Below the pieces are notes generated by a model that was not told where the DNA came from, did not search any database, and saw nothing but the letters and a program-made list of their open reading frames with translations. A DNA stretch of 64,000 bases from positions 1-64,000 of the forward strand of contig JABCZF010000001.1 in assembly GCA_013289825.1 (NCBI GenBank), in the 5' to 3' direction. The DNA comes from Acidobacteriota bacterium. GTDB taxonomy: Bacteria; Acidobacteriota; Terriglobia; Acidiferrales; UBA7541. Positions 37,555 through 54,436 of the stretch are shown here, one piece after another. The position numbers and the translations under genes are program-made. The first letter of the stretch is position 1, and every line of letters begins with the position of its first letter.

Positions 37555-39423
37555 TCAGGGCTGAATGCCCTTGCCCTCGATGATCGTCAGCATGCGATCT
37601 ACTCCAGGAATCGAAACCTGTTCGATGGCGCCGCTCGGCCAGCGAACTTCGAGTTTGTCGACTTTGCTAGCGGCTCCCAATCCGAAATGGACGCGCGGGT
37701 CGGAACTTGAAGCGTAGCTGCCACCGCTAGAGACATCGGCGCGCTGGCGAACGCTTCCCGCGGTCACAAATACTTTGGCCCCCATGGCATCGCGCGGGCT
37801 TTTGGGGCCGCCCACCAATTTCAACGTGAGCCAGTGATTCGAATTGTTCACCGCATTGCGGAGCAGCGTTGGCGGAGCGTCTATGTTGTTGAGCACCACG
37901 TCGATGTGGCCGTCATTGAAAAGATCGCCGAAAGCGGCGCCACGGGCGGGGATAACGACGGCAAGACCGCTGCCGGTGGCGGGCGGGACTTCCTCGAACT
38001 TGGCACCATCGAGGTTGCGAAAGAGCAGAGGGCGCTCGGCCCAAGTTGTGCCCCATTCGGCCCTGTCCGCTACCGGATAGACGTGGCCATTGGCGATGAA
38101 GATATCGAGCAGGCCATCGTTGTCGAAGTCGAGGAAGCCGGCGCCCCAGCTGAGGAAAGGAATGGTGGGACTGCCGAGTCCGGCTTTGAAAGAGACGTCC
38201 GTGAAGGCGGCATCGCCATCGTTGCGATAAAGGGCTTTGTAATCGTCAGAGAAGGTGGTGATGAAAAGATCGAGTTTTCCGTCGCGATTGTAATCGCCGA
38301 CGCCGATTCCCATGGACGATTGCGCGCGGCCATCTCCGTTGACGGCGAATCCGGACATATAACTGACGTCGGCGAACGTGCCATCATGCTGATTGCGGTA
38401 GAAGTAATTGGGCACGGAATCGTTGGCGACGACTAAATCGAGCCAGCCATCGTCGTCCAGATCGACAAACACCGAAGCAAACCCATAGCGTCCCTGCGGA
38501 TCGGAAACGCCAGCTTTAACACTGACGTCGGTAAAAGTGCCGTCGCCATTGTTATGGAAGAGATGGTCGCCCTCGCCGACGAAGCCCAGAGGTCCGCAGA
38601 AAACATCGACGCCGCGGAATTGGCACGCCCCTTCGGGGACGCCTCCTTTTCCGGCGAAGACGGGCCGATCGAGATCGTATTTGACATAGCCAGGAACGAA
38701 GAGGTCGAGGAGACCGTCGTGATCATAGTCGCCCCAGGTTGGGCCTGTGGACCAACCTCCTAGCGCGACGCCCGCTTTTTCGGCAACGTCGGTGAAGGTG
38801 CCATCGTGGTTGTTGTGGTAGAGGCGATTCTTGCCGTAGTTGGCGACATAGATGTCGGGCCAGCCGTCGTTGTCGTAGTCGGCCACGGCCACGCCGAATC
38901 CCCAGCGCTCATTGGCGACGCCGGCTTTATCGGTGACATCGCTAAAGGTGCCGTCGTGATTGTTGTGGAAGAGCATGGCGCGCGGCGGTGCTTCCTTTCC
39001 CTTTATCGCGGGGACGGTAGAGCCGTTGAGAAGGTAGATGTCGAGCCAGCCGTCGTTGTCGTAATCGATCAGCGCGACGCCTGAGCCGGGCGCGTCGAGG
39101 ATCGTGGATTTCTCCGGCGTGCCGGAGCGATGACGGAATTTATCGAGGCCGGATTGTTTCGTGATGTCGAGAAAGACGATGGGAGCGCCATCGACGAAGC
39201 CGCCGGCGGTGATGGGCCGCGAGCGTGAGTCCCTAACGGGAGCGTGAGCGCCGCCAGTGGCCATGCCGGTCGGTTTGGAGGGCGGGGAAGTTGCGGGCGT
39301 TTGACTGGCCGGTGGAGTTGGTTGCTGCGTTAAGGCGGGACGGCTTGGGGCGAAGATGGAAAGAAAGAGGCAGAGGAAAAGAGCCGATAGGGGGGAGCGA
39401 TGAGAAAAAGAGCGCAGCTTCAT
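37555..39423 (-). CDS. Exported CRTAC1-family FG-GAP/ASPIC-UnbV protein, coupled to the upstream CRTAC1 gene
   Basis: The ORF track extends to 39702, but the extra leader is the upstream gene read in another frame. The ATG at 39423 overlaps that gene's TGA by four bases and opens a signal peptide ('LSALFLCLFLSIFAPSRPALTQ'), giving 622 residues. A proline/threonine-rich linker follows. The FG-GAP/VCBS repeats contain 'DYDNDGWLD', 'DYDHDGLLD' and 'DFDNDGLLD'. The ASPIC/UnbV domain has 'SPRDAMGAKV' and 'VHFGLGAASKVDKLEVRWPSG'. It differs from the upstream protein enough to be an older paralogue. Coupled translation suggests the two are made together, perhaps in one complex. Function is unknown. 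Confidence 0.88.
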   Translation of the reverse strand: MKLRSFSHRSPLSALFLCLFLSIFAPSRPALTQQPTPPASQTPATSPPSKPTGMATGGAHAPVRDSRSRPITAGGFVDGAPIVFLDITKQSGLDKFRHRSGTPEKSTILDAPGSGVALIDYDNDGWLDIYLLNGSTVPAIKGKEAPPRAMLFHNNHDGTFSDVTDKAGVANERWGFGVAVADYDNDGWPDIYVANYGKNRLYHNNHDGTFTDVAEKAGVALGGWSTGPTWGDYDHDGLLDLFVPGYVKYDLDRPVFAGKGGVPEGACQFRGVDVFCGPLGFVGEGDHLFHNNGDGTFTDVSVKAGVSDPQGRYGFASVFVDLDDDGWLDLVVANDSVPNYFYRNQHDGTFADVSYMSGFAVNGDGRAQSSMGIGVGDYNRDGKLDLFITTFSDDYKALYRNDGDAAFTDVSFKAGLGSPTIPFLSWGAGFLDFDNDGLLDIFIANGHVYPVADRAEWGTTWAERPLLFRNLDGAKFEEVPPATGSGLAVVIPARGAAFGDLFNDGHIDVVLNNIDAPPTLLRNAVNNSNHWLTLKLVGGPKSPRDAMGAKVFVTAGSVRQRADVSSGGSYASSSDPRVHFGLGAASKVDKLEVRWPSGAIEQVSIPGVDRMLTIIEGKGIQP

Positions 39424-41129
39424 TTGCCCGCGGTTCCTGCTGGCGCCTCGTCGACCTCGAGAATCTGATCGGAGCGAATGTCTTTGAGCGTTTCGAGAAT
39501 GCCGCTGGGCCAGCGGATTTCGATGGTTTGAGCGACGGATTCGGAACCCAATCCGAAATGCACGCGTTTGTCGCTCGATGACAGGTAGCTGCCTGCGGTT
39601 GAAACGGTGGCGAATTGCTGGCCTTTCGCGGTGACAAGTTTGACTTCGGCGCCGATGGCGTCGCGGTTGCTCTTGTGTCCGACCAGCTTCAAGGTGAGCC
39701 AATGATTTTGCGTGGGCGTTTCGTTTCTGAGAATGTAGGCGGCACCGTCGTTCGTGGTTACCACGGCATCGATGCGGCCATCGTTGTCAATATCGCCGAT
39801 AGCCATGCCGCGGGCCACCCAGGGCTCGTGAAAAACAGCACCTGAGTCCCTTGAAACGTCGGCGAAATCGCGGCCGCTATTGCGCAGCAGCAGCATCGGC
39901 TCGCGGTAGTGCAGGTTGGGATAATTCAGCTCAATGGTTTCGAGATCATGGCCTTGGGCGATGAGGAGATCCTTCCAGCCATCATTATCATAGTCGAGGA
40001 AGCGCACGCCCCAGCCGGAATGCTGCATGGTAGAGCGCGCCAGGCCGGCACTGAAGCTGGCATACGTGAACGTCGAGTCGCCATTGTTTTGGTAGAGAGC
40101 GTAGCGCTGGTTGGCGAGATCGGTGATCACCACATCAGGCCAGCCGTCGTTATTGTAATCGGCGAAATCGACGCCCATCCCGGCATAGGTGCGTCCGTCG
40201 CCATCGACAGCCACCTGAGATAGCAGGCCCACCTCTTCAAACGTGCCATCACCCTTGTTGTGGTACAGGAATTGGACCATGGAGTCGTTGGCGACAAACA
40301 CATCGACGTGGCCATCGCGATCGTAGTCCGCCAGTGCAATGCCGAGCCCTTTTCCGGGCTTGGCGAGGCCAATTCTTTGGGAGACCTCGGTGAAATGGCC
40401 GTTTCCGTCATTGTGATAGACCAGCGGAGAAGCCGGCTGGAAGATGTCGGGATGGCAATAGGAGCGGTAACCTTCTTTGTGTTCGCCACACCAGATGTCA
40501 TCAAAATCCCACTGAACGTAGCGCAGAACAACAAGATCCAGCAGACCATCTCCATCCAGATCGACCCAGGCGGCGCTGGTGGACCAACCGCTGCCCGCAA
40601 CACCGGCCTTCTCGGTTACATCGGTGAAAGTGCCATTACCATTGTTGTGGTAGAGCTTGTTTCCGCCATAGGCGGTCACATACAAATCCTCGTAGCCATC
40701 GTTATCGTAATCCCCAACGGCCACTCCCATGCCGTAGCCGGAACCCTCGAGCCCGGCCTTCTCGGTTACGTCCACAAACGTGCCGTCGGGCTTCTGATGA
40801 AAAAGTCGATTCCAGTATTGCGGACCGGATTTCTGCGGGATGCTGCCTTTCGGAGTGGGATCACGGAGAGGAGCGCCGTTCACCAGGAAAATGTCCAGAC
40901 GTCCATCATTGTCGTAATCGAACAGTGCCACGCCTGCTCCCATGGTTTCCGGCAAATAGTGTTTGGCAGTGTGGGAGGCGAAGTATTGGAAGTGCAGGCC
41001 AAGCGTGGCCGTAGCATCGGTGAACTTGCCAGGCAATGGCTGGGGCTGGTCAGGAGCCTTAGAAGCCTGCCGGCCAGGCAGCGCCAAGAACAGCAGCGCA
41101 AGAAAGGGAAGGCCTGAAAGCAAACGCAT
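39420..41129 (-). CDS. Exported CRTAC1-family FG-GAP/ASPIC-UnbV protein, near-duplicate of the one at 28990
   Basis: 569 residues starting with a compact signal peptide ('MRLLSGLPFLALLFLALPGRQA'). FG-GAP/VCBS repeats ('DYDNDGRLD', 'DLDGDGLLD', 'DYDRDGHVD') occupy most of the protein. The ASPIC/UnbV domain lies at the end ('SNRDAIGAEV', 'VHFGLGSESVAQTIEIRWPSG'). It is highly similar to the protein at 28990-30852, including shared phrases such as 'PKGSIPQKSGPQYWNRLF' against 'AKGKIPQKTGPQYWNRLY'. The stop overlaps the start of the next CRTAC1 gene (ATGA). The upstream region abuts a possible transposase remnant and the divergent GH38 gene. Function is unknown. Confidence 0.9.
   Translation of the reverse strand: MRLLSGLPFLALLFLALPGRQASKAPDQPQPLPGKFTDATATLGLHFQYFASHTAKHYLPETMGAGVALFDYDNDGRLDIFLVNGAPLRDPTPKGSIPQKSGPQYWNRLFHQKPDGTFVDVTEKAGLEGSGYGMGVAVGDYDNDGYEDLYVTAYGGNKLYHNNGNGTFTDVTEKAGVAGSGWSTSAAWVDLDGDGLLDLVVLRYVQWDFDDIWCGEHKEGYRSYCHPDIFQPASPLVYHNDGNGHFTEVSQRIGLAKPGKGLGIALADYDRDGHVDVFVANDSMVQFLYHNKGDGTFEEVGLLSQVAVDGDGRTYAGMGVDFADYNNDGWPDVVITDLANQRYALYQNNGDSTFTYASFSAGLARSTMQHSGWGVRFLDYDNDGWKDLLIAQGHDLETIELNYPNLHYREPMLLLRNSGRDFADVSRDSGAVFHEPWVARGMAIGDIDNDGRIDAVVTTNDGAAYILRNETPTQNHWLTLKLVGHKSNRDAIGAEVKLVTAKGQQFATVSTAGSYLSSSDKRVHFGLGSESVAQTIEIRWPSGILETLKDIRSDQILEVDEAPAGTAGK
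40573..40724 (-). repeat. Copy 2 of the ~152-bp near-identical tract (see 29533-29684)
   Basis: The reverse complement matches 29533-29684 with one mismatch by my reading. It lies inside the CRTAC1 gene at 39420, over the 'DYDNDGYEDLYVTAYGGNKL' segment. Confidence 0.85.
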
Positions 41130-41211: not shown

Positions 41212-41378
41212 CTATCCATAAAGACGTGAATGACATGCGTAGGAAGGCATAAATGACATGGGGACGGATTGACAGGACGACTCTCGATCGGAAAGAGTGG
41301 ACTTCGCAAATTTGGGAATCTCCTTCGAAGCCACAAATCCGGCCCTAACCGGGTGAATACGCCAGTGAGAAAAGTCAT
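41212..41378 (-). pseudogene. Possible remnant of a REP-associated (IS200-like) transposase C-terminus
   Basis: On the minus strand the phrase 'IHPVRAGFVASKE' resembles the 'LNPVRAGLV' motif that ends REP-associated tyrosine transposases. It is followed by two copies of 'AATGACATG' within 25 bases on the plus strand, one continuing 'GGGACGGATTGACAG'. No catalytic region is left. The segment overlaps the 5' end of the GH38 ORF. The match is short, so confidence is low. Confidence 0.3.
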
Positions 41379-44300
41379 CGTCGCTACTGTTTTCGCCGCA
41401 CTTTCGTGTGGCGGAGTCCGCTCCGGCCAAGCGAACCAGCCGCCGGACGCTTATCAGCCGATACTCGATCGTCTCGAGTCGCTTACCACGCTGCCATTGC
41501 CAGATTGGCGTTACCACGCGGACCTGCCGCATCCCGAAGACCCGGCATTGAGTGACGAGGATTGGCCGCAGGTGAAGACCCGCGAAGAGTGGAAGACCGG
41601 CTCGCGTGTTTTGCGCCGGTGGATTGAGATTCCCGCGAAGATTAATGGCTACGCTACCGAGGGTTCGCGGGTGAACCTGGAGCTTTTCTTCGATACCGAC
41701 GACCGGCTGGGGATTACGGTGTTCTCAAACGGCGCGCTGGTGGCCCGCGGCGACGACGACACGCAACAGCCGATAGCGCTCACCTCGAATGCCCAGCCAG
41801 GCCAAAAATTCCTGATGGCGGTGCGCTTGAATGCGTCGCAAGTGAATACACGAATTGCAGAAAGCCGGCTGCGTATCGAGCCCCCCGCTAATCGTCCCGA
41901 CGCCGGGATTTTGCGAGCGGAGATCCTTTCGGCGCGGCCGATGATCGCGGCGTTTCCAGATGGCCAATCTCTGCGGGAAAGCCAGCTCGACGCCGCTGTG
42001 AAGGCCATTGATTTTCTGGCGCTTGACCGCGGAGATCAGGGGGCCTTTGACGAATCGCTGCGGCAATCGCAGGCCAAGCTCGAACCGCTCCGGCCGTTCC
42101 TGAAACAGTTCACCATTCGCGCCGCCGGAAACTCGCACATCGACATGGCTTGGCTCTGGCCCTGGACGGAAACCGTGGAAGTGGTGCGCAATACGTTCCG
42201 CAGCGCTCTCGACCTGATGCGCGAATACCCCGATTTCAAATTCAGCATGTCATCGGCGCGAACCTACGTCTGGATGGAGGAAAAGTATCCCGATCTCTTT
42301 AAGGAGATCGCGCAGCGTGTGCGCGAAGGCCGCTGGGAAGCGATTGGGGGAATGTGGGTCGAACCGGATCTCAACATGCCGGGCGGCGAGTCGCTGGTGC
42401 GCCAAATCCTTGTGGGGAAACGCTATTTCCATGAAAAATTCGGCGTGGACGTAAAAATAGGCTGGAATCCGGATTCCTTCGGTTATAACTGGCAATTGCC
42501 GCAGATTTACAAGAAGTCCGGCATGGATTATTTCGTGACGCAAAAACTGATGTGGGCGCACGAATTTACTACCTTCCCCTACAAATTGTTCTGGTGGGAG
42601 TCTCCCGACGGGAGCCGTCTGCTGACGTATTTTCCGCACGATTATGCCGCGAATACCGATCCCGTCGGCATGGCCAGAGACCTGTCCATTTGGATTCCCT
42701 CGCTCTACGGCACCGACGCGAACCAGCATTCCGACATGCTGCACCTCTACGGAGTTGGCGATCATGGCGGCGGCCCGACGCGAATCATGCTCGATACCGC
42801 CACGCGCTGGATGAAGCCCGATGTCGTGTATCCCAATTTGCAGTTCACCACGGCGTCTTCCTTCTTCGATGATCTGCAAAAGAAACTTCCGGGCATGCAG
42901 GTCCCCACCTGGCGCGACGAACTCTACTTTGAATATCACCGCGGCGTCATGACCACGCAGGCGGAAACGAAAAAGCGCATTCGCAAAACGGAAGAGCTGC
43001 TCCTCAATGCCGAGAAATTCTCTTCACTCGCCACTTTGTACGGGCGCAAATACCCCTCGGAAGATTTCGACCGCGGGTGGAAACGGCTGCTGTTCGACGA
43101 TTTCCACGACATCATGCCAGGGTCGGGGATTGCCGTGAACTATCTTGATGCCAAGCGCAATCTTGAAGATGTCGGCCGAGCAGGCCACGCTATCTTGCAT
43201 GGATCCCTCGAAGAACTTGCTGCTCGCATCAATACCCTGGGACCCGGCGTGCCAGTGGTGATCTTCAACTCCCTGTCGTGGCCGCGGAAGGAAGTGATAG
43301 AAGTCGAGGTGCAACTTCCCGGCATTGCTAAGCACATCGAGGTTCGAGATTTTTCCGGGAAGATTGTGCCGTCGCAATTGCTGACGCACGACAGCGAAAC
43401 CAGTCGCGCTCGTTTACTGGTCGAAGCCAGCGTTCCCGCACTTGGTTACAAGACCTACTATGTTCGCGCGGCGGAAAAGGTCATGCCGCAAACCCCCGCG
43501 GTGAAAAGTTCCGCGGACACGCTGGAAAACGAATTTGTACTCGTAAAAATAGATGCGCACACAGGTTGCGTTTCGAGCTTCTTTGACAAACGGAGCAACA
43601 CGGAATCCCTGGCACCGGCAGAAACGGATACCGGCGGTCCGAAAGACGCTATCTGCGGAAATCTCCTGCAAGCTTTTCGAGACAAACCAAAGGCCTGGGA
43701 CGCGTGGAACATCGACGCTGATTTCGAGAAAGAGCATTGGGATCTGACTCAGGTGGACGAGGTGAAGCTGATGGAGAGCGGCCCGCTGCGCGCCATCATC
43801 CAGGTGAAACAGCACTTCGAGAATTCCACGTTTATCCGGAACATCACACTCACTGCCGGAAGTCCACGCGTTGACGTGCGGATGATTGCCGATTGGTACG
43901 AAAAGCACATCTTGCTGAAAGTTGCGTTTCCGCTCAGCGCGCATAGTCAAAAAGCCGCGTTTGAAATTCCCTACGGCTCGATCGAACGCCCGACCACGCG
44001 CAACACCCCTGCCGAACAGGCCAAGTTCGAGGTCCCCGCGCTCGCCTGGGGGGACATCTCCGACGCCAAGCACGGGTTCAGTCTGCTGAACGACTCGAAG
44101 TATGGCTATGACGCGAAGGGCAACGTTTTGCGGCTTTCCTTGCTGCGCTCGCCGGAATGGCCGGACCCGCACGCCGATGAAGGCCTTCATGAATTCACTT
44201 ATTCAATGTACGCACATCCGGGAACCTGGCGAGAGGCAGAGACCGTTCGCCGGGGTTATGAACTGAACTACGATCTCTTGGCGATGGGAACGGCAAAGCA

Positions 44301-44592
44301 CCCCGGCACGATGAAAGAGGAGCACTCTTTCTTCGAAGTCCAGGCGGAGAATGTCGTCATGACGGCGATTAAGAAAGCGGAGGATGACGGCTCGCTCATC
44401 CTGCGATTTTACGAATGGGCGGGAAAAGAATCGGACGTGAGGATCGTGCTACCCGTTGGCGCGCAATCGGCTTCCGAAACTGACTTGATGGAAAGGCCGA
44501 TCGCGGACCTGGCTGTTCCAGGTGGGGTTGTAGCGGTTCACACGAAACCCTACGAAATCAAGACCATTCGGGTTCGCTTCGCCGGAGAGTAG
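41353..44592 (+). CDS. Glycoside hydrolase family 38 alpha-mannosidase, exported
   Basis: Hydrolyses alpha-mannosides using a zinc-bound catalytic site. I prefer the GTG at 41353, which opens a signal peptide ('VRKVIVATVFAALSCGGVRSG') and gives 1079 residues; the ORF track's TTG at 41269 adds a non-signal leader. A beta-sandwich N-domain precedes the GH38 barrel. Zinc ligands are in 'AAGNSHIDMAWLWPW'; the nucleophile aspartate is in 'GWNPDSFGYNWQLPQ' (D374 from this start). The central helical domain follows ('EYHRGVMTTQAETKK', 'LLFDDFHDIMPGSGI'), then C-terminal beta domains. The length fits large GH38 enzymes. It stands alone and convergent with a SCO-like gene. A mannose-containing glycan is the likely target, outside the cytoplasm. 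Confidence 0.93.
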   Translation: MNTPVRKVIVATVFAALSCGGVRSGQANQPPDAYQPILDRLESLTTLPLPDWRYHADLPHPEDPALSDEDWPQVKTREEWKTGSRVLRRWIEIPAKINGYATEGSRVNLELFFDTDDRLGITVFSNGALVARGDDDTQQPIALTSNAQPGQKFLMAVRLNASQVNTRIAESRLRIEPPANRPDAGILRAEILSARPMIAAFPDGQSLRESQLDAAVKAIDFLALDRGDQGAFDESLRQSQAKLEPLRPFLKQFTIRAAGNSHIDMAWLWPWTETVEVVRNTFRSALDLMREYPDFKFSMSSARTYVWMEEKYPDLFKEIAQRVREGRWEAIGGMWVEPDLNMPGGESLVRQILVGKRYFHEKFGVDVKIGWNPDSFGYNWQLPQIYKKSGMDYFVTQKLMWAHEFTTFPYKLFWWESPDGSRLLTYFPHDYAANTDPVGMARDLSIWIPSLYGTDANQHSDMLHLYGVGDHGGGPTRIMLDTATRWMKPDVVYPNLQFTTASSFFDDLQKKLPGMQVPTWRDELYFEYHRGVMTTQAETKKRIRKTEELLLNAEKFSSLATLYGRKYPSEDFDRGWKRLLFDDFHDIMPGSGIAVNYLDAKRNLEDVGRAGHAILHGSLEELAARINTLGPGVPVVIFNSLSWPRKEVIEVEVQLPGIAKHIEVRDFSGKIVPSQLLTHDSETSRARLLVEASVPALGYKTYYVRAAEKVMPQTPAVKSSADTLENEFVLVKIDAHTGCVSSFFDKRSNTESLAPAETDTGGPKDAICGNLLQAFRDKPKAWDAWNIDADFEKEHWDLTQVDEVKLMESGPLRAIIQVKQHFENSTFIRNITLTAGSPRVDVRMIADWYEKHILLKVAFPLSAHSQKAAFEIPYGSIERPTTRNTPAEQAKFEVPALAWGDISDAKHGFSLLNDSKYGYDAKGNVLRLSLLRSPEWPDPHADEGLHEFTYSMYAHPGTWREAETVRRGYELNYDLLAMGTAKHPGTMKEEHSFFEVQAENVVMTAIKKAEDDGSLILRFYEWAGKESDVRIVLPVGAQSASETDLMERPIADLAVPGGVVAVHTKPYEIKTIRVRFAGE

Positions 44593-44616: not shown

Positions 44617-45522
44617 CTATTGCGGCGCGCGCAGCAGGGCTTCGAAAAGGTCGCCCAGTTGCTTGGCGGTGAACTCGTTGCCTTCAAGGTTGGCAACCAC
44701 CTTTCCTTGCCGGTCGAGGATAACCGTATGCAGGGCGTGGGTGATGAAGCCTTCGTCTTGCCAGAAATTCATGCCGAACTCATGACAGACTTTTTGAACC
44801 TCGATCACCGGGCCGGTTAAGAAATACCAGCCGGAAACGCCGGCCGCATTCCAGTGCCGCGCATACTGAGCGAGAACCTCGGGCTGATCGTGTACGGGAT
44901 CAAAACTAATATTTAACAGGATCAAGTCGCGTCCCAATTGATCCGCGAAACGCTTTCGGACCATCCCGAAATTATTGGACAGCCGAAAGCAGTAATTCGG
45001 AAGTGGACAGTGGGTGTACATGAACGTGATGCCGACCACCTTGCCCGTGAATGAAGCGAGGGAAACGGACTGGCTGTTTTGGTCGATAAGGGAGAAATCC
45101 GGGACGTGCTCTCCGATATTTATCTTCTTAGTCGCATCGGAGCTTCGACCGACGAGCCCCTCGAGGAGGTTAAGCTGACGAACCGCCATGGGTTCCGGAT
45201 CGGTGCTCTGGAACTGATGGATCCGAATGCCCTCCGCATGGGCGGAGTCTTTTGCCGCGACAATCGTGAAATCGATCAGCGTGCCCGGTTCCAAGCCCTC
45301 CAGGTCCATGGCGTTCTGAACTGGAAATTCCATCACCGTGGCTTCCATGTAGCCGGGGATCTCGTGGCAGGAAACTCGAATGGAAGGATGCGTGCGATCG
45401 ACTTCGAGAACAACTCCGAATGCTGGGTGGCGCTCTCGAGCGAAACCCAGCGGCACACAACAGAACAAATAGAGTACCAGTAGTATTAGCCTCTTGCTGT
45501 GCGTCCGGCTCATAGATTTCAT
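44617..45522 (-). CDS. CusF-like + SCO1/SenC-like fusion protein, exported
   Basis: The ORF track extends to 45837 into the upstream gene. The ATG at 45522 (or 45513) opens a signal peptide ('LILLVLYLFCCVPLGFARE'), giving about 301 residues. Next is a CusF/copper-binding-like domain ('GVVLEVDRTHPSIRVSCHEIPGYMEATVMEFPV'-type, H and M rich), then a thioredoxin-fold SCO domain ('VPDFSLIDQNSQSVSLASF'). The copper-site cysteines read 'CPLPNYC', a CX5C spacing instead of the canonical CxxxC, with a distal histidine in 'ITHALHTVILD'. SCO proteins deliver copper to cytochrome oxidase or act as thiol reductases; which applies is not known. It starts ten bases after the rotamase-CRTAC1 gene and is probably in its operon. 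Confidence 0.87.
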   Translation of the reverse strand: MKSMSRTHSKRLILLVLYLFCCVPLGFARERHPAFGVVLEVDRTHPSIRVSCHEIPGYMEATVMEFPVQNAMDLEGLEPGTLIDFTIVAAKDSAHAEGIRIHQFQSTDPEPMAVRQLNLLEGLVGRSSDATKKINIGEHVPDFSLIDQNSQSVSLASFTGKVVGITFMYTHCPLPNYCFRLSNNFGMVRKRFADQLGRDLILLNISFDPVHDQPEVLAQYARHWNAAGVSGWYFLTGPVIEVQKVCHEFGMNFWQDEGFITHALHTVILDRQGKVVANLEGNEFTAKQLGDLFEALLRAPQ

Positions 45523-45532
45523 TGCGGACCGG

Positions 45533-48190
45533 CTACCTGTTCGCGCCTGGGTTCGGAGGGGTTCGACTTGGCAACTTTGTAGCATCCGGTTTCGCGCTTC
45601 CCAGACGAAATGATACGCGCTTAAGCCTAGTGTAATCCTTGGCGAATTCTTTAATTTCGATAAATTGATTTGTGCCGACATTCGAGAAGTTCTGTATCGT
45701 GCCGCTCGCAGGCCACCGAATCTCCAGACTGGCGATCTTCGCGGACGGGCCCAACCCCATGTGTTGCTCGAGTGGCGAAGCGCCAAACGATCCTCCGCTC
45801 CCGACGGTTCGATAGATGGAGCGCGGCGGCTGGCCATCCTGGTCCACGGTCAGATGGATGCGTGCCCCGATGGCCGAGCGGTTCGTTTTTACGCCGACCA
45901 GCTTCACGGTGATCCAGCCGTTGTCGTTTCCCGGATTCTCGAAAACGCGAAAGGCGTGGGCATCACCGGGCGTAGCGCCCCCCACAGAAACCAGGAGGTC
46001 TTCCCGTCCGTTGTTGCCGAGGTCAGCGAAGGCCACACCGTGACCTTTGTGGAGCTCGCCGGTGCCCGAAGAGGCCGTGATATCCACAAAACTCTTTCCT
46101 TCGTTGTTGCGAAAAAGCATCTTGGGAACCAGAGCGCCATACTCAGGGCCGCCGGTAGCGAGAAAAATGTCCAGAAAACCGTCGTTATCGATGTCGCCAA
46201 AATTGGCGCCCATGGGCGTATTGATTCTATCGAGGCCAACTTCGACGGTCACATCTTTGAAAGTTCCGTTCTTCATATTCCGGTAGAGCTTGAACGTCTC
46301 GACGTTGTGCGGAAGAGCAAGATAGCTGCGCAGAGTTTCGTCGGCGGAAAAGAAATACGAAGTAACAAAGAGATCGGACCAGCCATCGTTGTCGTAGTCG
46401 AAAAACCAAGTGGCAAAGCTTTGCGACTGTGGCTGGTGCACGCCGGCTTTCGCCGAAACCTCGGTGAACGTGCCATCGTGATTGTTGTGATAGAGAAAAT
46501 TGCCACCGTAAAGGTTGGAGACGTAAAAGTCCACGAAGCCATCGTTGTCGTAATCCGCGGCGACCACGCCTTTTGTGAAGGCCATTCTGTCAACGCCAGC
46601 GGAGTGTGAGATATCTTCAAACGTTCCGTCGCCCTTGTTATGGAAAAGCTGGCTGGGGCCATTTTCATTGCCCACAAATAGGTCGAGCAGGCCATCGTTG
46701 TCGATGTCTGCCCAGACGGCCGTTTGCGTGCGCGTAGCGGGTTCCGCCAGGCCCGCCTCGCGCGTTACGTCGGTAAAGGTGCCGTCGCAATTGTTTCGGA
46801 GCAAAGATTTTCGCATCGGAAATTCCCAAGCCCCGCGCAAAACGAGCAGATCCGTGCAGCCGTCGTTGTTGTAGTCGGCTTGAATCATATTTAGCCCGCC
46901 CAGTTGAGCGGAAAGCCCAGCCTGCGCGGCTCGGTCAGTGAACGTTCCGTCGGCATTGTTGCGGAAGAAACGCATCGGGGCGCACACGTCGTAACTCGAT
47001 ACGGCCAAGTCCAGGAGCCCGTTGTTCTCAAAATCGTCGGCGATCACGCCATTCGCCATGGAAGCAAAATCCAAGCCGGCCGCGGGAGCCACGTCCACAA
47101 ATCTGCCGATGTCCTGTTTCGATTCGAACGCCGATGGCGATATGCGGTATTCCTCGGGAACACCCGACGGATACTTTCCGATCGTCATGTAGGCGAGATT
47201 CAGAAGCCACTTCACCTGCAACTGATCAGGCCGTTCCGGTTTTATCGCCAAATACTTCAGAAAATATTGAACGGCCTTATCGGAATCGTCTGTCAGGCGA
47301 TAAGGCTTGGCGAGCCGCGGCGGAAAGAGGCACCAGTCTCCCGGGTGGCTATAGATACTGTTCTTCATTTCCGATTTGTGGAGATAAGCCACGCCGAGCA
47401 CTTCCGTCAGTTGCGGAATTCCCGTTGGAATTTCAGCAAGCGCAATTTTGTAAGCAGCCTCCCAGTGCGTGACGGCCTCGTCCATGTTGCCCTGATAGGC
47501 CTCGAGTTGCGCCAATGCGTAATGTGACTGGATTACGTCAAATGGCTTCATCGCTACGAGCGCCTTGTTCGCGGGTTCGAACAGCTCGTCGAGTCGCGCG
47601 ATTCCCGCCGCCAGGGAGCGTTTGCGAATCTCGCAAATTCCCTGCAAGTCTTGCTCCCAATTCGACGGCTTGGGGAATTTTTGGAACAGCATGTCGGCAA
47701 GAACCTGCCCGGCCACATCGGCTGGATAGCGCACGGCTCCTTGACCCGCGAGAGGGAGATCCCGACCTTGGCCCGGACCCATGCCCTGCGCAACCCCGGG
47801 CTGCGTCTCCGGCAGAAGCTTGAGAATGACGTATCCGGAAGGCACCGCAATGACCTTGGTAGTCTGCCCCGGACGGAGTCCTTGCAAAGCTTCTCGCAAC
47901 TCCGGCCGGAGTGTTCGAGGATCAACAAGTTCGAGGTAGCCGCCCGGCGCGGCGCTTGGATCGATCGATTCGGACTTGGCGATGGCGGCAAAATCTTCGC
48001 CTTTTTTAAGGCGATCCAAAATCTGCTGTGCCTTGCCAGGCGAATCCACAACGATTACCTGCAGATTGAGCATCACGGAGGGACTGTCCTGAGAGGGAAG
48101 CGCAGAAGGAACCGGAAAAGCAAGACCAAATACCAGCAGGCCGGAAAGGCAAAACAAGCGACCTTTAAGATTTAGTCCGTACAAAATCAT
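45533..48190 (-). CDS. Parvulin-like rotamase + FG-GAP/ASPIC-UnbV (CRTAC1) fusion, exported
   Basis: About 885 residues from the ATG at 48190 (an ATG ten codons upstream is the track start; neither has a strong ribosome site). After the signal peptide ('GLLVFGLAFPVPSALPSQ') comes a PPIC/parvulin domain, residues ~50-130 ('KAQQILDRLKKGEDFAAIAK', 'APGGYLELVDPRTL', 'VIAVPSGYVILKLL'). A helical TPR-like region follows (~170-330). FG-GAP/VCBS repeats come next ('DDFENNGLLD', 'DIDNDGLLD', 'DYDNDGFVD'), then an ASPIC/UnbV domain ('TNRSAIGARI', 'MGLGPSAKIASLEIRWP'). The SCO-like gene starts ten bases downstream. The fusion links folding catalysis to the CRTAC1 module. Function is unknown. Confidence 0.88.
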   Translation of the reverse strand: MILYGLNLKGRLFCLSGLLVFGLAFPVPSALPSQDSPSVMLNLQVIVVDSPGKAQQILDRLKKGEDFAAIAKSESIDPSAAPGGYLELVDPRTLRPELREALQGLRPGQTTKVIAVPSGYVILKLLPETQPGVAQGMGPGQGRDLPLAGQGAVRYPADVAGQVLADMLFQKFPKPSNWEQDLQGICEIRKRSLAAGIARLDELFEPANKALVAMKPFDVIQSHYALAQLEAYQGNMDEAVTHWEAAYKIALAEIPTGIPQLTEVLGVAYLHKSEMKNSIYSHPGDWCLFPPRLAKPYRLTDDSDKAVQYFLKYLAIKPERPDQLQVKWLLNLAYMTIGKYPSGVPEEYRISPSAFESKQDIGRFVDVAPAAGLDFASMANGVIADDFENNGLLDLAVSSYDVCAPMRFFRNNADGTFTDRAAQAGLSAQLGGLNMIQADYNNDGCTDLLVLRGAWEFPMRKSLLRNNCDGTFTDVTREAGLAEPATRTQTAVWADIDNDGLLDLFVGNENGPSQLFHNKGDGTFEDISHSAGVDRMAFTKGVVAADYDNDGFVDFYVSNLYGGNFLYHNNHDGTFTEVSAKAGVHQPQSQSFATWFFDYDNDGWSDLFVTSYFFSADETLRSYLALPHNVETFKLYRNMKNGTFKDVTVEVGLDRINTPMGANFGDIDNDGFLDIFLATGGPEYGALVPKMLFRNNEGKSFVDITASSGTGELHKGHGVAFADLGNNGREDLLVSVGGATPGDAHAFRVFENPGNDNGWITVKLVGVKTNRSAIGARIHLTVDQDGQPPRSIYRTVGSGGSFGASPLEQHMGLGPSAKIASLEIRWPASGTIQNFSNVGTNQFIEIKEFAKDYTRLKRVSFRLGSAKPDATKLPSRTPPNPGANR

Positions 48191-48601
48191 CAGCAAACCA
48201 GAAGGGGGCTCGGAGCGCACAGCCGGTGGTGCGAGTGAATTCTAGCACGAGGTTCAAAAGGAGAGCGGGTGACGCTTTCGACCGACCATGTTCCTATGGT
48301 TCTCCGGAACATCTTGGGCTGCTTCAGCTCTACCCCCAATGCGTGCGACCCACGGTCATGCTCCGCGCGGCCCCGAGATGTACGGTAGGCCCCTGCCCCT
48401 CATCGACCGACGGCCCTTTCCGCCTGACTTTCTCTTGTATCCGCTGGCACCCCGCTTACATCTAAGGGGGACGCTGACGGCAGATTCGAAATCGTGTACC
48501 ATCTCGACACCGCGCGGTATTCGTGAAGCGTTCGATGAAGCCGATGCCAACCATCCCCATGATGTATGGGTGTGCCTATGCTCGTCGTCCAAGGAGTATT
48601 C
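48191..48601. promoter_or_regulatory. Divergent region upstream of the RND operon with an inverted repeat
   Basis: 411 non-coding bases. A perfect 7-base inverted repeat ATGTTCC (48288-48294) and GGAACAT (48306-48312), spacer 11, gives a 25-base dyad suited to a dimeric repressor. It lies about 290 bases before the RND start and 100 bases from the divergent gene. No regulator is adjacent, and no promoter boxes are clear. Small ORFs here resemble nothing I know. Confidence 0.35.
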
Positions 48602-49822
48602 ATGTCGCTCCATTTTACGGTCTCCGTTGGGCCATCTTTCCACCACCGGCAGCACCTCCGTAATTCCCGTTCCGCTCACTCCACCGGTGCCTCCACGCCC
48701 CTGCTGGTCAGCGTTCTCTCGGCCGTAGCGATCCTTGCTGGCTGCGGCGGGAGAGCTGCGGGGCCCCCCATGGCGCCGCCAGAAGTGAAAGTCATTCCCG
48801 TAGCACAAAGAGACGTGCCCATCGTAAGCGAGTGGGTTGCCACCCTCGACGGCTACGTCAACGCCCAGATCCAGCCTCAAGTCACCGGCTACATCGTCAA
48901 ACAAACCTACAAAGAGGGTTCGCCCGTTCCCAAAGGGGATGTCCTCTTCGAGATTGATCCGCGTCCCTTCCAGGCCCTCCTCGACCAGGCCAAGGCCCAA
49001 TTGGCGCAAGCTGTGGCGCAGATGGGCAAGACCCAGCTGGACGTTGACCGCGACACGCCTCTCGCCAAAGAGCGCGCCATCGCGCAAAGCCAGCTGGACA
49101 ATGACGTTCAAGCGAATCTTGCCGCAAAAGCCGCCGTGCAATCTTCAGAAGCGCAAGTGGAACAAGCTCAGTTGAATTTGGGATTCACTCATGTCACGTC
49201 GCTTTTCGACGGCATTGCCGGCATTGCTCAAGTCCAGCTCGGCAATTTGGTCAACCCCAGCACTGTCCTCACCTCCGTGTCTCAGGTTAATCCCATCAAA
49301 GCGTATTTCCCCATCAGCGAGCAGGAGTATTTGCGTCTGGCTGACCGCATCAACGCCCCACAAGACCATGTGGACGCTCCCAAAGACGCTCCTCCCCTGG
49401 AGTTGATTCTTGCCGACGGAACCATCTACCCATCCAGGGGCCGCGTCCTTTACACCGATCGCCAAGTGGACATAACCACCGGCACCATCCGGGTCGTCTC
49501 GGCATTTCCCAACCCCAAAAATTTCCTGCGTCCCGGACAATTCGGCCGCGTGCGGGCCTCTACCTACACACGGACTGCCGCGCTTCTCGTTCCGCAGCGC
49601 GCCGTGATCGAACTGCAAGGCAGCTTTCAACTAGCCGTGGTCGGCGCCGATAACAAAGTCAGCGTCCGCATCGTCAAAGTCGGCGAGCGTGTCGGCACGG
49701 AATGGATCATCGACAACGGGGTGAAGCCCGGCGAGATGGTCATTGTCGAGGGTGTGCAAAAAGTGCGGGACGGATCGGCTGTCAATCCTAAACTGCTGAC
49801 CGCAACCGCGGGAGGGGACTGA
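48602..49822 (+). CDS. RND efflux periplasmic adaptor (membrane fusion protein, AcrA/MexA type)
   Basis: Links the inner-membrane RND pump to the outer-membrane channel. The start is at the ATG at 48602 with 'AAGGAG' six bases upstream, giving 406 residues; the track's earlier ATG lacks a ribosome site. A lipoprotein signal ends at 'ILAGCGG' (lipidated C48). The biotinyl-lipoyl half-motifs are 'VNAQIQPQVTGYIVKQTYKEG' and 'NLGFTHVTSLFDGIAG'. An alpha-helical hairpin (~130-180, 'QLAQAVAQMGKTQLDVDR') and the beta-barrel/membrane-proximal region ('LADGTIYPSRGRV', 'LRPGQFGRVRA') are also visible. It is the first gene of the operon, two bases before the pump gene. The drug or solute is unknown. Confidence 0.95.
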   Translation: MSLHFTVSVGPSFHHRQHLRNSRSAHSTGASTPLLVSVLSAVAILAGCGGRAAGPPMAPPEVKVIPVAQRDVPIVSEWVATLDGYVNAQIQPQVTGYIVKQTYKEGSPVPKGDVLFEIDPRPFQALLDQAKAQLAQAVAQMGKTQLDVDRDTPLAKERAIAQSQLDNDVQANLAAKAAVQSSEAQVEQAQLNLGFTHVTSLFDGIAGIAQVQLGNLVNPSTVLTSVSQVNPIKAYFPISEQEYLRLADRINAPQDHVDAPKDAPPLELILADGTIYPSRGRVLYTDRQVDITTGTIRVVSAFPNPKNFLRPGQFGRVRASTYTRTAALLVPQRAVIELQGSFQLAVVGADNKVSVRIVKVGERVGTEWIIDNGVKPGEMVIVEGVQKVRDGSAVNPKLLTATAGGD

Positions 49823-49824
49823 CC

Positions 49825-52800
49825 ATGTCAAAATTCTTCATCAATCGCCCGATCGTCGCCATGGTGATCTCCATCGTCATGGTCATCATTGGCGCCATCA
49901 CTATCCTTACTCTCCCGGTCGCTCTGTTTCCGAACATCGTTCCTCCCGAAGTTCAGGTGCTGGCCACCTACGTCGGAGCCGACGCTGGCACCATCGAGCA
50001 ATCCGTGGCCACGCCCATCGAACAGCAAATGAGCGGCGTCGACAACATGAACTACATGTATTCGCTGAATTCCACTGCCGATGGCGGCATGCGCTTGATC
50101 GTCGATTACGATGTGAAGACCGATCCGAATACCGATCTTATTCTCACCCAGATACGTTCCACGCAAGCCACGTCGCAGTTGCCTGTTGACGTGACCAACT
50201 ATGGCCTAACGGTCCAAAAAACCGTCACCGCGCCGCTCATGCTCATCACTCTGTTTTCCCCGAACGGCACCTACGATGCCCAGTTCCTTTCAAACTTCGC
50301 GTACATCAATCTCAGCGACCAGATCACGCGTCTCTACGGCATCGGCAGCGTCCAGATTTTCGGCGCTGGCCAGTACGCCATGCGTCTGTGGGTAAAGCCC
50401 GATCAATTGGCCAAGCTCGCCATCACCGTTCCGGAAATCGTCAGTGCCATCCAAACACAAAACACCGTCAATCCCGCCGGTCAGGTTGGCAGTGAACCGG
50501 CCCCCAAAGGTCAGGAGTTTACCTACTCCGTCCGCGCCCGCGGCCGTCTCTCCTCGCCCGAAGAGTTCGGTGAAATTGTCGTCCGCGAAACGAGTCTCGG
50601 CGGTGTGGTCCGTGTCAAAGATGTGGCGCGCGTCGAACTCGGCGCCCAGAATTACAGCGTCCTCGGCCGCCTCAACGGAAAACCCGGCGCCATCGTCGCC
50701 GCCTACCAATTGCCGGGCTCCAACGCCGTGCAAGCCGCCGACGCCCTCAAAAAACTGATGGCCGAGGCCAAGTCGCGCTTCCCCGGCGACATCGATTACG
50801 TCATTTCCCTGGACACCACGCTGGCCGTCACGCAGGGCATCAAAGAAATAGTCATCACGCTGTTGATCGCCATCGTCCTGGTCATCATCGTGGTGTACAT
50901 CTTTCTCCAAGGCTGGCGCGCCACGCTCATTCCTCTACTGGCAGTGCCGGTTTCTCTGGTTGGCACATTCATTTTCTTTCCCTTGTTCGGCTTCTCCATC
51001 AACACGCTTTCCCTCTTTGGTTTGGTTCTCGCCATCGGCCTGGTTGTCGATGACGCCATCGTCGTCGTCGAAGCCGTCGAGCGCCACATCGAAGACGGTC
51101 TTTCGCCAAAGGAAGCCGCCCTCAAGGCCATGACGGAGATATCCGGCCCCGTTGTCGGCATCGCGCTGGTTCTCTCCGCGGTGTTCATCCCCACGGCCTT
51201 CATCCCTGGCATCACCGGCCGCCTCTATCAACAGTTCGCCGTCACCATCGCGATCTCGGTGGCGCTCTCCGCCTTCAATGCCCTTACGCTCAGCCCGGCT
51301 CTCTCCGCCTTGCTATTGCGCCCCAAAGACGCGACCCGCGGGGGCTTACTCAAGAAATTCTTCAACGGGTTTAACCGTACCTTCAGCAGCGCCACCAACG
51401 CCTACGTACGCGTCTGCGGCTTCCTGGTCCGCAAAAGCGCTTTCGCTCTCGTGCTCTTGGCGCTTTTTGGAGGTGCCGCGGGCTTTTTCAGCTCGAAAGT
51501 CCCTTCCAGCTTTCTTCCCGATGAAGACCAAGGCTACCTCTACATCAACCTGCAACTGCCCAACGCTGCTTCTCTTCAACGCACCGACGAAGTCGCACGC
51601 AAAATTGAAACGGCTCTGGCTCACACGCCCGGCGTCCAATACACCACCAGCGTCGTTGGCTTCAGCCTTCTCAGCTTCGTGCGCACCAGCTACAACGGCT
51701 TTTTCTTTGTCACTCTGAAGCCCTGGGACGACCGCAAATCCCGCGACGAACAGTTCCAGCAAATCAAGCAGAACGTCAACCGCGAGCTCAGCCAAATTCC
51801 CGAAGGCATCGCCTTCTCCTTTTCCCCTCCCGCCATTCCCGGCGTCGGCACCTCCGGCGGCTTCACCTTCGTCCTGGAAGACCGCGCCGGCAGCGACGTC
51901 CAATTCCTCGCCGACAACGTGAACAAATTCCTCGCCGCTGCCCGCAAGCGACCGGAAATCGCAAACGTAAGCACCACCTTCCTCCCAAGTGTTCCGCAGC
52001 AGTTCGTGGACGTAGACCGCGACAAAGTCATCAAGCAGGGTGTCGCCGTCAAAGATGTCTATCAAACTCTCCAGGCCTTCATGGGCGGACTGTTCATCAA
52101 CTATTTCAATCGCTTCGGACGCCAGTGGCAGGTGTACATCGAAGCCGAAGGCGCCTACCGCACCCGCGCGGAAAATGTCGGCCAGTTTTTCGTCAAAAAT
52201 ACAACCGGAGCGATGGTTCCTCTCGCTGCTGTCACAAGATTCGAGTCTCGCCCCGGCCCCGAATTCACCATGCGCTACAACGAATATCGCTCCGCCCAAA
52301 TCAACGGCTCCGCTGCTCCCGGCTTCAGCGCCGGCCAGGCCATGGCCGCGATCGAAGAAGTCTTCGATCAAACCATGCCCCGCGAAATGGGATACGACTA
52401 CATAGGCATGTCCTTCCAGGAGAAAAAAGCCCAGCAGGGCGTACCCGCCTCCGCGGTATTTGGTTTTTCTCTGCTCTTCGTTTTTCTGATTCTCGCCGCG
52501 CTCTATGAAAGCTGGACGTTGCCTTTCAGCGTCCTTCTCAGCACGCCGGTCGCCGTCTTTGGCGCTTTCTTCATCCTCTGGCTCCGGCGGGTCCTGCTTT
52601 CGGCATTTCTCCCGACCTACATGGTGCAGATCGAAAACGACGTCTATTCACAAATCGGTCTGGTCATGCTTATCGGTCTCGCTGCCAAGAACGCGATTCT
52701 CATTGTCGAATTTGCAAAAGACGAATATGAGCAAGGCAAACCGCTGGTAGATGCCGCTCTGGAGGGCGCCCGCTTGCGTCTGCGCCCGATCCTAATGACC

Positions 52801-53043
52801 TCTTTTGCCTTCATCCTCGGCTGCGTCCCTCTGTGGACCGCTTCCGGCGCGGGTTCCGTCGCGCGCCAAATTATGGGCACCGCGGTAATCGGCGGCATGC
52901 TCGCAGCCAGCGCCCTCGGTATTTTCTTCATCCCTGCGGTTTTCTATGTGGTCGAGCGCCTCTCCTTGGGTAAAGCGGGGCGCGCCGCCATGGTTAGCGG
53001 AATTCCCGCTCCAGGCACAAGCCCAGCCGGAGGAGACGACTGA
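49825..53043 (+). CDS. RND efflux pump permease (HAE1 family, AcrB/MexB type)
   Basis: Proton-driven inner-membrane pump of 1072 residues, full length for the family. A 'GGGAGGGGA' ribosome site precedes the ATG. The N-terminus 'SKFFINRPIVAMVISIVMVI' is the typical TM1. TM4 carries the proton-relay aspartates in 'GLVVDDAIVVVEAVERH' (pair near residues 409-410), and TM10 carries the lysine in 'GLAAKNAILIVEFAKDE'. Both large periplasmic porter loops are present ('SSFLPDEDQGYLYINLQLP'). No frameshifts. The adaptor is two bases upstream, and the outer-membrane factor starts two bases after its stop. The substrate cannot be predicted from sequence alone. Confidence 0.97.
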   Translation: MSKFFINRPIVAMVISIVMVIIGAITILTLPVALFPNIVPPEVQVLATYVGADAGTIEQSVATPIEQQMSGVDNMNYMYSLNSTADGGMRLIVDYDVKTDPNTDLILTQIRSTQATSQLPVDVTNYGLTVQKTVTAPLMLITLFSPNGTYDAQFLSNFAYINLSDQITRLYGIGSVQIFGAGQYAMRLWVKPDQLAKLAITVPEIVSAIQTQNTVNPAGQVGSEPAPKGQEFTYSVRARGRLSSPEEFGEIVVRETSLGGVVRVKDVARVELGAQNYSVLGRLNGKPGAIVAAYQLPGSNAVQAADALKKLMAEAKSRFPGDIDYVISLDTTLAVTQGIKEIVITLLIAIVLVIIVVYIFLQGWRATLIPLLAVPVSLVGTFIFFPLFGFSINTLSLFGLVLAIGLVVDDAIVVVEAVERHIEDGLSPKEAALKAMTEISGPVVGIALVLSAVFIPTAFIPGITGRLYQQFAVTIAISVALSAFNALTLSPALSALLLRPKDATRGGLLKKFFNGFNRTFSSATNAYVRVCGFLVRKSAFALVLLALFGGAAGFFSSKVPSSFLPDEDQGYLYINLQLPNAASLQRTDEVARKIETALAHTPGVQYTTSVVGFSLLSFVRTSYNGFFFVTLKPWDDRKSRDEQFQQIKQNVNRELSQIPEGIAFSFSPPAIPGVGTSGGFTFVLEDRAGSDVQFLADNVNKFLAAARKRPEIANVSTTFLPSVPQQFVDVDRDKVIKQGVAVKDVYQTLQAFMGGLFINYFNRFGRQWQVYIEAEGAYRTRAENVGQFFVKNTTGAMVPLAAVTRFESRPGPEFTMRYNEYRSAQINGSAAPGFSAGQAMAAIEEVFDQTMPREMGYDYIGMSFQEKKAQQGVPASAVFGFSLLFVFLILAALYESWTLPFSVLLSTPVAVFGAFFILWLRRVLLSAFLPTYMVQIENDVYSQIGLVMLIGLAAKNAILIVEFAKDEYEQGKPLVDAALEGARLRLRPILMTSFAFILGCVPLWTASGAGSVARQIMGTAVIGGMLAASALGIFFIPAVFYVVERLSLGKAGRAAMVSGIPAPGTSPAGGDD

Positions 53044-53044
53044 A

Positions 53045-54436
53045 ATGAGACCTTTGCTCACCTCGCTGCTGATCGCGCTACTGATTTCCGGTTGCACCGT
53101 GGGACCTGACTACAATCGTCCGAAAGCCGTTGTTCCCACGGAGTTCCGCGGCGTTTCTCCCGAAGCTTCCAAAGCCGAAGCCGCCTCGCTAGGCGATCAA
53201 AAATGGTTTGAGGTCTTCCGCGACGAGCAGCTCCAGTCTCTAATCCGCACGGCAATCCAGCAGAATTTCGATGTGCGGATTGCTGCCACTCGCGTTTTAG
53301 AGGCACAGGCCCAATTGGGCATCACGCGCTCCAATCAATTTCCCAGCGTCAGCGGCGGTGCAAATCTTTCTGCCGAACGCGCTGCGAAATCGATCGCCTT
53401 TCCGGCCATCGAGCAATCCACCGGACAACTGAGTCTCTCCGCTTCCTGGCAACTCGATTTCTGGGGACAATATCGCCGCGCCACGGAAGCCGCTCGCGCC
53501 TCCCTGCTAGCCACCGAGTGGGGCCGCCGTTCTGTCATCAGCTCCCTGGTTGCCAATGTAGCCTCTTCCTATTTTCAACTCCGGGCCCTCGATCTTCAGC
53601 TCGAACTCTCCCAGAACGCTCTGACGGCGCGCCGCGAATCCCTTCGCCTCACCTCGGTCCTCTCAGACCATGGCAATACTTCTGAGCTCGACGTCCGCCA
53701 AGCCGAACAACTCGTCTACACCGCCAGCGAAGAAATCCCCGACCTCGAACGCCGTATTCAGCAGGAGGAAAACTTCCTTAGCATTCTGCTCGGAAACAAC
53801 CCCGGTCCCATCGCCCGCGGCCTGCGTCTCACCGAGCAACCGCACTCCCCCGAAATTCCCGCAGGCATTCCCTCCGAGCTTCTCGAGCGCCGCCCCGATA
53901 TCTGCCAGTCCGAACAGTTTCTCATTGCCGCTAACGCCCAGATCGGCGTGGCCCGCGCCGCTTACTATCCGCAAATCGCTCTGACGGGTTCGGGTGGCTT
54001 CCAAAGCGACGCTCTTTCTCGCCTCTTCGCCGGTACGGCCGGCCTGTGGAGCTTTGCGGGCTCTCTAACGCAACCCATCTTCACCGCCGGAAGAATTCGC
54101 TCCGGTGTCAGACTCGCCGAAGCCCAGCAACAGGAAGCTGTCCTCACCTATCAGCAAACCATCCAACAATCCTTCCGCGACGTTTCCGATGCTCTCATCG
54201 CGTATCGCAAAAATCTCGAATTTCGGGAACAGCAGGAACTTCTCACTGCCTCCGCCAAAGACGCCGCGCGTCTTTCCAACATTCGCTATAAAGGCGGAGT
54301 AACCAGCTACCTCGAGGTTCTCACCAACGAAACCAACTACTTCAGCGCCGAACTCAATCTTGCCCAAGCCCAAGCCAACGAACTCCTCGCTCTCGTCCAG
54401 GTCTACCAAGCCCTCGGCGGCGGCTGGCAACAATAA
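53045..54436 (+). CDS. RND efflux outer-membrane factor lipoprotein (NodT/OprM type)
   Basis: Outer-membrane channel of the tripartite pump. The ATG at 53045 is chosen: 'GGAGGAG' lies upstream and a lipoprotein signal follows ('LLTSLLIALLISGC', lipidated C17); the track start inside the pump gene is spurious. 463 residues. It has family features 'VGPDYNRP', 'ASWQLDFWGQYRRATEAARA', two coiled-coil OEP repeats ('ELSQNALTARRESLRL', 'LAEAQQQEAVLTYQQTIQQ') and the late 'RYKGGVTSYLEVLTNETNYF'. It starts two bases after the pump's stop, so the three genes form one operon. No local regulator gene is seen. Confidence 0.96.
   Translation: MRPLLTSLLIALLISGCTVGPDYNRPKAVVPTEFRGVSPEASKAEAASLGDQKWFEVFRDEQLQSLIRTAIQQNFDVRIAATRVLEAQAQLGITRSNQFPSVSGGANLSAERAAKSIAFPAIEQSTGQLSLSASWQLDFWGQYRRATEAARASLLATEWGRRSVISSLVANVASSYFQLRALDLQLELSQNALTARRESLRLTSVLSDHGNTSELDVRQAEQLVYTASEEIPDLERRIQQEENFLSILLGNNPGPIARGLRLTEQPHSPEIPAGIPSELLERRPDICQSEQFLIAANAQIGVARAAYYPQIALTGSGGFQSDALSRLFAGTAGLWSFAGSLTQPIFTAGRIRSGVRLAEAQQQEAVLTYQQTIQQSFRDVSDALIAYRKNLEFREQQELLTASAKDAARLSNIRYKGGVTSYLEVLTNETNYFSAELNLAQAQANELLALVQVYQALGGGWQQ

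Follow-up and report, generated by a model that had tools for sequence, protein, structure and literature searches.

Two adjacent genes on the minus strand may constitute a conserved envelope module, in which a CusF-SCO fusion protein would act in the periplasm as a Cu(I)/thiol chaperone reserved for the protein encoded next to it, Rot-CRTAC1, which would be a candidate for a new propeller cuproprotein. Judged from the sequences, this explanation was given an even chance of being correct. The pairing of the two genes, which recurs in many Acidobacteriota, and the matching gains of histidines in their products suggest that Rot-CRTAC1 is an unrecognised metal protein, probably a copper protein, that has its own assembly factor.

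Bacteria have abundant CRTAC1 (FG-GAP/ASPIC-UnbV) proteins, and we know of no function that has been assigned to those of Acidobacteriota. A dedicated SCO partner, together with coordinated histidine changes, offers a concrete and cheap handle on the function of CRTAC1 proteins. If the proposal is true, cytochrome oxidase and NosZ, the known clients of SCO chaperones, would be joined by a new one. A literature search retrieved nothing that joins UnbV and copper, and nothing direct on CusF-SCO fusions. A precedent exists for CRTAC1 proteins beside periplasmic metalloenzymes, i.e., an FG-GAP CRTAC1-family gene that is clustered with hydrazine-synthase-like genes (PMC12758564).

Gene layout and domain architecture

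The Rot-CRTAC1 gene spans positions 45533..48190 of the window (the whole stretch of 64 kb that was analysed). It starts with an ATG at 48190, has its stop at 45533, and encodes a protein of 885 amino acids with a signal helix, a parvulin-like domain, TPR-like helices, an FG-GAP propeller, and an ASPIC/UnbV domain. With an alternative in-frame start, a GTG at 48220, the protein would be 10 residues longer. The CusF-SCO fusion gene follows at 44617..45522 (ATG at 45522, stop at 44617) and encodes 301 amino acids with an N-terminal signal or anchor helix. Like the genes, all domains, motifs and codons of the pair given below lie on the minus strand. The gap of 10 nt between the two genes (45523..45532) contains no promoter-like or terminator-like site. 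An earlier note had described a parvulin-ASPIC/UnbV fusion that is followed, ten bases on, by a CusF-SCO fusion; both open reading frames and the gap were found to be exact, and the Pfam domains matched the description. Features that go beyond that note are the TPR-like middle region, the absence of the parvulin histidines, the CxxxxxC spacing in the SCO domain, and T62 in the CusF domain.

The Pfam matches of Rot-CRTAC1 were Rotamase (PF00639, 1.7e-12; 47816..48034), FG-GAP_3 (5.8e-48), and UnbV_ASPIC (4.4e-14; 45659..45874), and those of the fusion protein were CusF_Ec (1.8e-7; 45244..45429) and SCO1-SenC (PF02630, 3.6e-17; 44701..45102). All of these matches exceeded the curated Pfam cut-offs. 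The TPR-like region (47183..47545) yielded TPR matches below the threshold and is helical in the structural model. The FG-GAP repeats and the C-terminal UnbV_ASPIC domain place Rot-CRTAC1 among the CRTAC1 proteins, and the best PDB match of its AlphaFold model (pLDDT 83) was murine CRTAC1 (9etn, Foldseek 3.3e-25), while the N-terminal domain matched PrsA/PpiC. The FG-GAP propeller and the ASPIC/UnbV domain are common to the murine and the bacterial protein, but Rot-CRTAC1 has additional parvulin-like and TPR-like regions at its N-terminus as well as histidines that are linked to the presence of the SCO. At the position of one histidine, H717, murine CRTAC1 has a threonine, and another, H745, aligns to a gap. 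Export by the twin-arginine pathway was rejected as a general trait of Rot-CRTAC1, because RR signals are present in some members only and the window protein has none.

The parvulin-like domain bears on a further claim of the earlier note, namely that the CRTAC1 module is tied to folding catalysis, and this claim was not supported. The domain shares the PF00639 fold with the parvulins PrsA, SurA, and PpiD, but the two conserved active-site histidines of parvulin prolyl isomerases are both absent from the window protein, and neither position carries a histidine in any of the Rot-CRTAC1 proteins with a detectable domain (0/48). PrsA and SurA have kept the second active-site histidine, in the form G-[FYW]-H. 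The role of these two histidines is debated, and a structural instead of a catalytic function has been proposed for the dual-histidine motif (Bailey 2008, as cited in PMC2678132 and PMC5353683). Given the absence of both histidines in 48 of 48 proteins, the domain probably serves for binding, and prolyl isomerase activity of Rot-CRTAC1 is doubtful.

Conservation of the gene pair

The main test that could have refuted the earlier note was the conservation of the gene pair in other genomes, and the pair passed it strongly. In a survey of 399 genomes of the class, SCO loci were scored from 335 bits upwards (n=32), and 31 of these 32 loci adjoin a Rot-CRTAC1 gene. They comprise 29 intact pairs on the same strand, one pair that a contig end interrupts shortly past a CRTAC1 C-terminus (G189), and one pair in divergent orientation (G285). 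The sole unlinked locus at or above 335 bits was G183:C372. The SCO of genome G329, a weaker match with 292 bits, was likewise paired. Pairs were found in the families f1, f6, f7, f11, and f15 of the class.

Two further genome sets gave the same picture. Among 100 relatives, all eight genomes besides the window's own that have an SCO with at least 49% identity also have an adjoining Rot-CRTAC1 gene (8/8). A wider scan covered named genomes of about 85,000 species. At 41% identity or more, 25 of 27 SCO loci adjoined a Rot-CRTAC1 gene, whereas at 39% or less none of 53 loci did. The paired genes often overlap, e.g., by 4 nt, an arrangement that points to coupled translation. At the loci L199-L201, L203, and L206, tandem arrays that have no linked SCO were observed, each with a Rot-CRTAC1, a shorter copy, and a third CRTAC1.

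A histidine signature in Rot-CRTAC1

In an alignment of 66 Rot-CRTAC1-type proteins, the columns 271, 714, and 745 set the SCO-linked proteins and their close kin apart from the remainder. Three histidines (HHH) were present in 44 proteins and in one further protein that is truncated at 745, R/Q/Y was present in 19 proteins, and F/E/S and Q/P/Q were present in one protein each. Mixed states at the three columns were not found among the 66 aligned proteins. In the window, the codon of H271 (47378..47380) lies in the TPR-like helices, and those of H714 (46049..46051) and H745 (45956..45958) lie in the region of the last propeller blade. H714 forms an H-x-x-H motif with H717 (46040..46042), which does not vary among the members, whether they are linked to an SCO or not.

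To explain the HHH trait, two changes on the tree are enough, so that the signature is a clade-level one; it speaks for a coordinated switch, but the independent events are few. That HHH arose only once was rejected weakly (p-AU 0.043). A formal tree test of SCO linkage against the histidine trait was not significant, because there were too few independent changes.

Alternatively, cysteines of Rot-CRTAC1 might be the target of the SCO. In that case the SCO would be a thiol-disulfide oxidoreductase, which keeps or forms the disulfides of Rot-CRTAC1 without delivering a metal. The thioredoxin fold of the SCO would fit this role, C445 is present in 87% of the HHH proteins versus 10% of the others, and C287 and C403 are common. 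However, several linked subgroups have lost cysteines and retained the histidines, i.e., C445 is lost in L193-L197 and L202, and position 403 is not a cysteine in most f6 sequences. The pair C445/C468 as SCO target appeared perfect on nine sequences, but was rejected because it is lost in several linked subgroups, and thus the cysteine pair is not the main signature. In addition, the Sco proteins of Streptomyces and human showed no thiol-disulfide reductase activity (PMC3603459), and an oxidoreductase role leaves both the CusF domain and the histidine switch unexplained. It was regarded as unlikely that the SCO acts on disulfides only.

The CusF-SCO protein

The AlphaFold model of CusF-SCO (pLDDT 88.5) has an N-terminal helix at residues 7-27, and its best PDB matches were BsSco (1xzo) and human SCO1. 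The protein shares the thioredoxin fold, two invariant cysteines, and the distal metal histidine with the SCO1/SenC/PrrC chaperones (BsSco, human SCO1, ScoI). In the window, the cysteines are part of C172-P-L-P-N-Y-C178 (44989..45009), and the metal histidine H262 lies together with H265 at 44728..44739. The curated alignment shows no variation at C172, C178, and H262 (32/32 for H262). The SCO motif has been described as CXXXCXnH (PMC9145763), but five residues separate the cysteines in the window protein and likewise in distant relatives. With the fold and the histidine of an SCO and a different spacing of the cysteines, the protein was classified as "SCO-like with CxxxxxC". It differs from the known chaperones also in the fused CusF-like domain, in the extra H265, and in its linkage to CRTAC1 instead of cox genes.

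H265 is the counterpart of the signature in Rot-CRTAC1. It was present in 38 of 41 linked SCO proteins, in the one divergent case (1/1), and in only one of 46 unlinked proteins. The lone unlinked SCO with H265 stems from genome G183, in which an HHH Rot-CRTAC1 is encoded on another contig. These reciprocal residue changes in Rot-CRTAC1 and SCO suggest a direct contact between the two proteins.

A shift was also seen in the CusF-like domain, where position 52 is a cysteine in 26 of 41 linked proteins and a histidine in 39 of 46 unlinked proteins. The domain matches PF11604 with 31.4 bits (cut-off 27) and the clade shows the Met-x-x-Met-x-Met pattern of CusF/SilF, but it lacks the set of one histidine and two methionines that are the copper ligands of CusF. 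Instead, the histidine is mostly replaced by cysteine, the tryptophan position is a methionine, and an SCO is fused to the domain. The clade ligands are thus mostly Cys, Met, and Met, and the window protein with its putative metal site C52/M59/T62/M64 has a threonine at one of the methionine positions. Two other, weaker SCO-like matches were found in the genome of the window, and therefore other chaperones may exist.

Genomic context of the relatives

Three HHH proteins are encoded on sufficiently long contigs without an SCO nearby or, at the threshold used, elsewhere in the genome. At L183 (498-9118), cusB-cusA lie directly upstream of the Rot-CRTAC1 gene on the same strand, and at L192 (370-9139), cusCBA are divergent to it. 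The respective scores with TIGR00914 were 1071 and 1106 bits (cut-off 701). The third protein (L182) has neither an SCO nor cus genes nearby, and a strong CusA match was not found at any of the remaining examined loci.

The neighborhood of cus efflux genes would also fit a mere co-regulation of the pair, e.g., in a response to copper stress or copper limitation, with an SCO whose client is a different cuproenzyme, e.g., cytochrome oxidase, the classical client of SCO proteins. Yet no cox genes were seen among the annotated neighbors of the pairs, the two proteins co-occur and have a patchy distribution as a pair within the genus, and the reciprocal residue changes point to direct contact. Co-regulation as the whole explanation was judged to be rather improbable. 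Relatives of the window SCO in cox operons were also searched for as a candidate context, and they were not found; the genes lie beside a pfkB kinase gene in Acidobacteriaceae and beside nos-like genes in Verrucomicrobia.

SCO homologues serve cytochrome oxidase and the CuA site of NosZ (PMC7558416). Deeper relatives of CusF-SCO were found in clusters of the latter kind. At L099 the neighbors are NosD and an ABC ATPase, and at L095 they are NosD, an ABC permease, and a NosZ-like propeller protein. NosZ, with its SenC2/NosDFYL maturation system, is a periplasmic propeller cuproprotein that an SCO homologue serves (PMC7558416). In contrast, Rot-CRTAC1 has no Pfam match to nos_propeller or to the CuA cupredoxin and does not belong to this family, and the likeness would lie in the mode of assembly only. 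Distant CusF-SCO genes (L049, L050, L056) are located directly 3' of TonB-dependent receptors, a linkage that possibly reflects copper uptake. Three observations thus supported the link of CRTAC1 to copper/thiol chemistry that had been proposed earlier, namely the invariance of the SCO ligands, the reciprocal signatures of histidines in the two proteins, and the genomic surroundings.

Two other arrangements were observed among the relatives. In a sister clade of CusF-SCO (L210-L213, L093, L091), the gene is paired with that of a TPR protein of 540-590 aa without a family assignment, which has 58-64% identity between most loci. At L048:9082-12736, a distant SCO has two neighbors, a protein whose catalytic domain is T6SS Tle1-like and an FG-GAP protein that lacks ASPIC.

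Possible mode of action

In the proposed mechanism, Cu(I) would first be received by the CusF-like domain (C52, M59, M62 or threonine, M64). As in the biochemistry of SCO proteins, the copper would then move on to the SCO site, formed by C172, C178, and H262 together with H265, and this site would reduce or metallate the client. Rot-CRTAC1, as a secreted protein with a propeller and a TTR-like part, would take up the metal at H714-x-x-H717, H745, and H271, the last of which lies on the TPR-like helices, and the parvulin-like domain would act as a non-catalytic docking module. The assembly of a copper protein in the envelope had been suggested before; the copper/thiol link of that suggestion was retained, but the client is likely to be the CRTAC1 protein itself and not an unnamed third protein.

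The candidate histidine site could bind zinc, iron, a sugar, or a partner protein instead of copper. It is a tentative further possibility that Rot-CRTAC1 represents a new class of copper enzymes or redox proteins, with the putative site at the junction of the TPR-like helices and the propeller, and that CusF-SCO was recruited from copper assembly of the NosZ or oxidase type.

Neighboring genes in the window

Two more CRTAC1 genes lie on the minus strand at 37555-39702 and 39420-41129 (span 37555..41129). In the relative G031 (L040), the order Rot-CRTAC1, SCO, CRTAC1, CRTAC1 is unbroken, and the two extra genes have 79% identity to 39420-41129 and 84% identity to 37555-39702. In the window, this cluster is split by a gene on the plus strand (41269-44592) for a GH38-like alpha-mannosidase, which was identified by eye from the sequence.

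The proximity of the pair to the mannosidase-like gene and to TonB receptors raises the idea that a substrate, e.g., a glycan, is bound or converted at the three histidines, and that the SCO was recruited solely for protein stability. This idea would agree with a match to the fold of aldos-2-ulose dehydratase, which is a propeller enzyme whose active site contains a metal, but the match is weak (TM about 0.3), and the linkage of the mannosidase-like gene is not conserved, because it separates genes that are contiguous in G031. A substrate site was considered quite improbable, and a metal site loaded by the CusF-SCO protein is the preferred explanation.

Seven of the 13 UnbV_ASPIC matches of the genome are located in the 64-kb window, several of them in tandem. 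In one further CRTAC1 protein (528-4379), which has a twin-arginine-like signal, the CRTAC1 part is joined to TPR repeats and an AhpC/TSA redoxin domain, so that CRTAC1 is linked to a thioredoxin fold a second time. The divergent RND pump at 48566-54436 was rejected as a copper pump, because it is of the HAE1 multidrug type and not a CusA. The window also contains a gene for an AbiEii-type nucleotidyltransferase toxin at 54791-55579.
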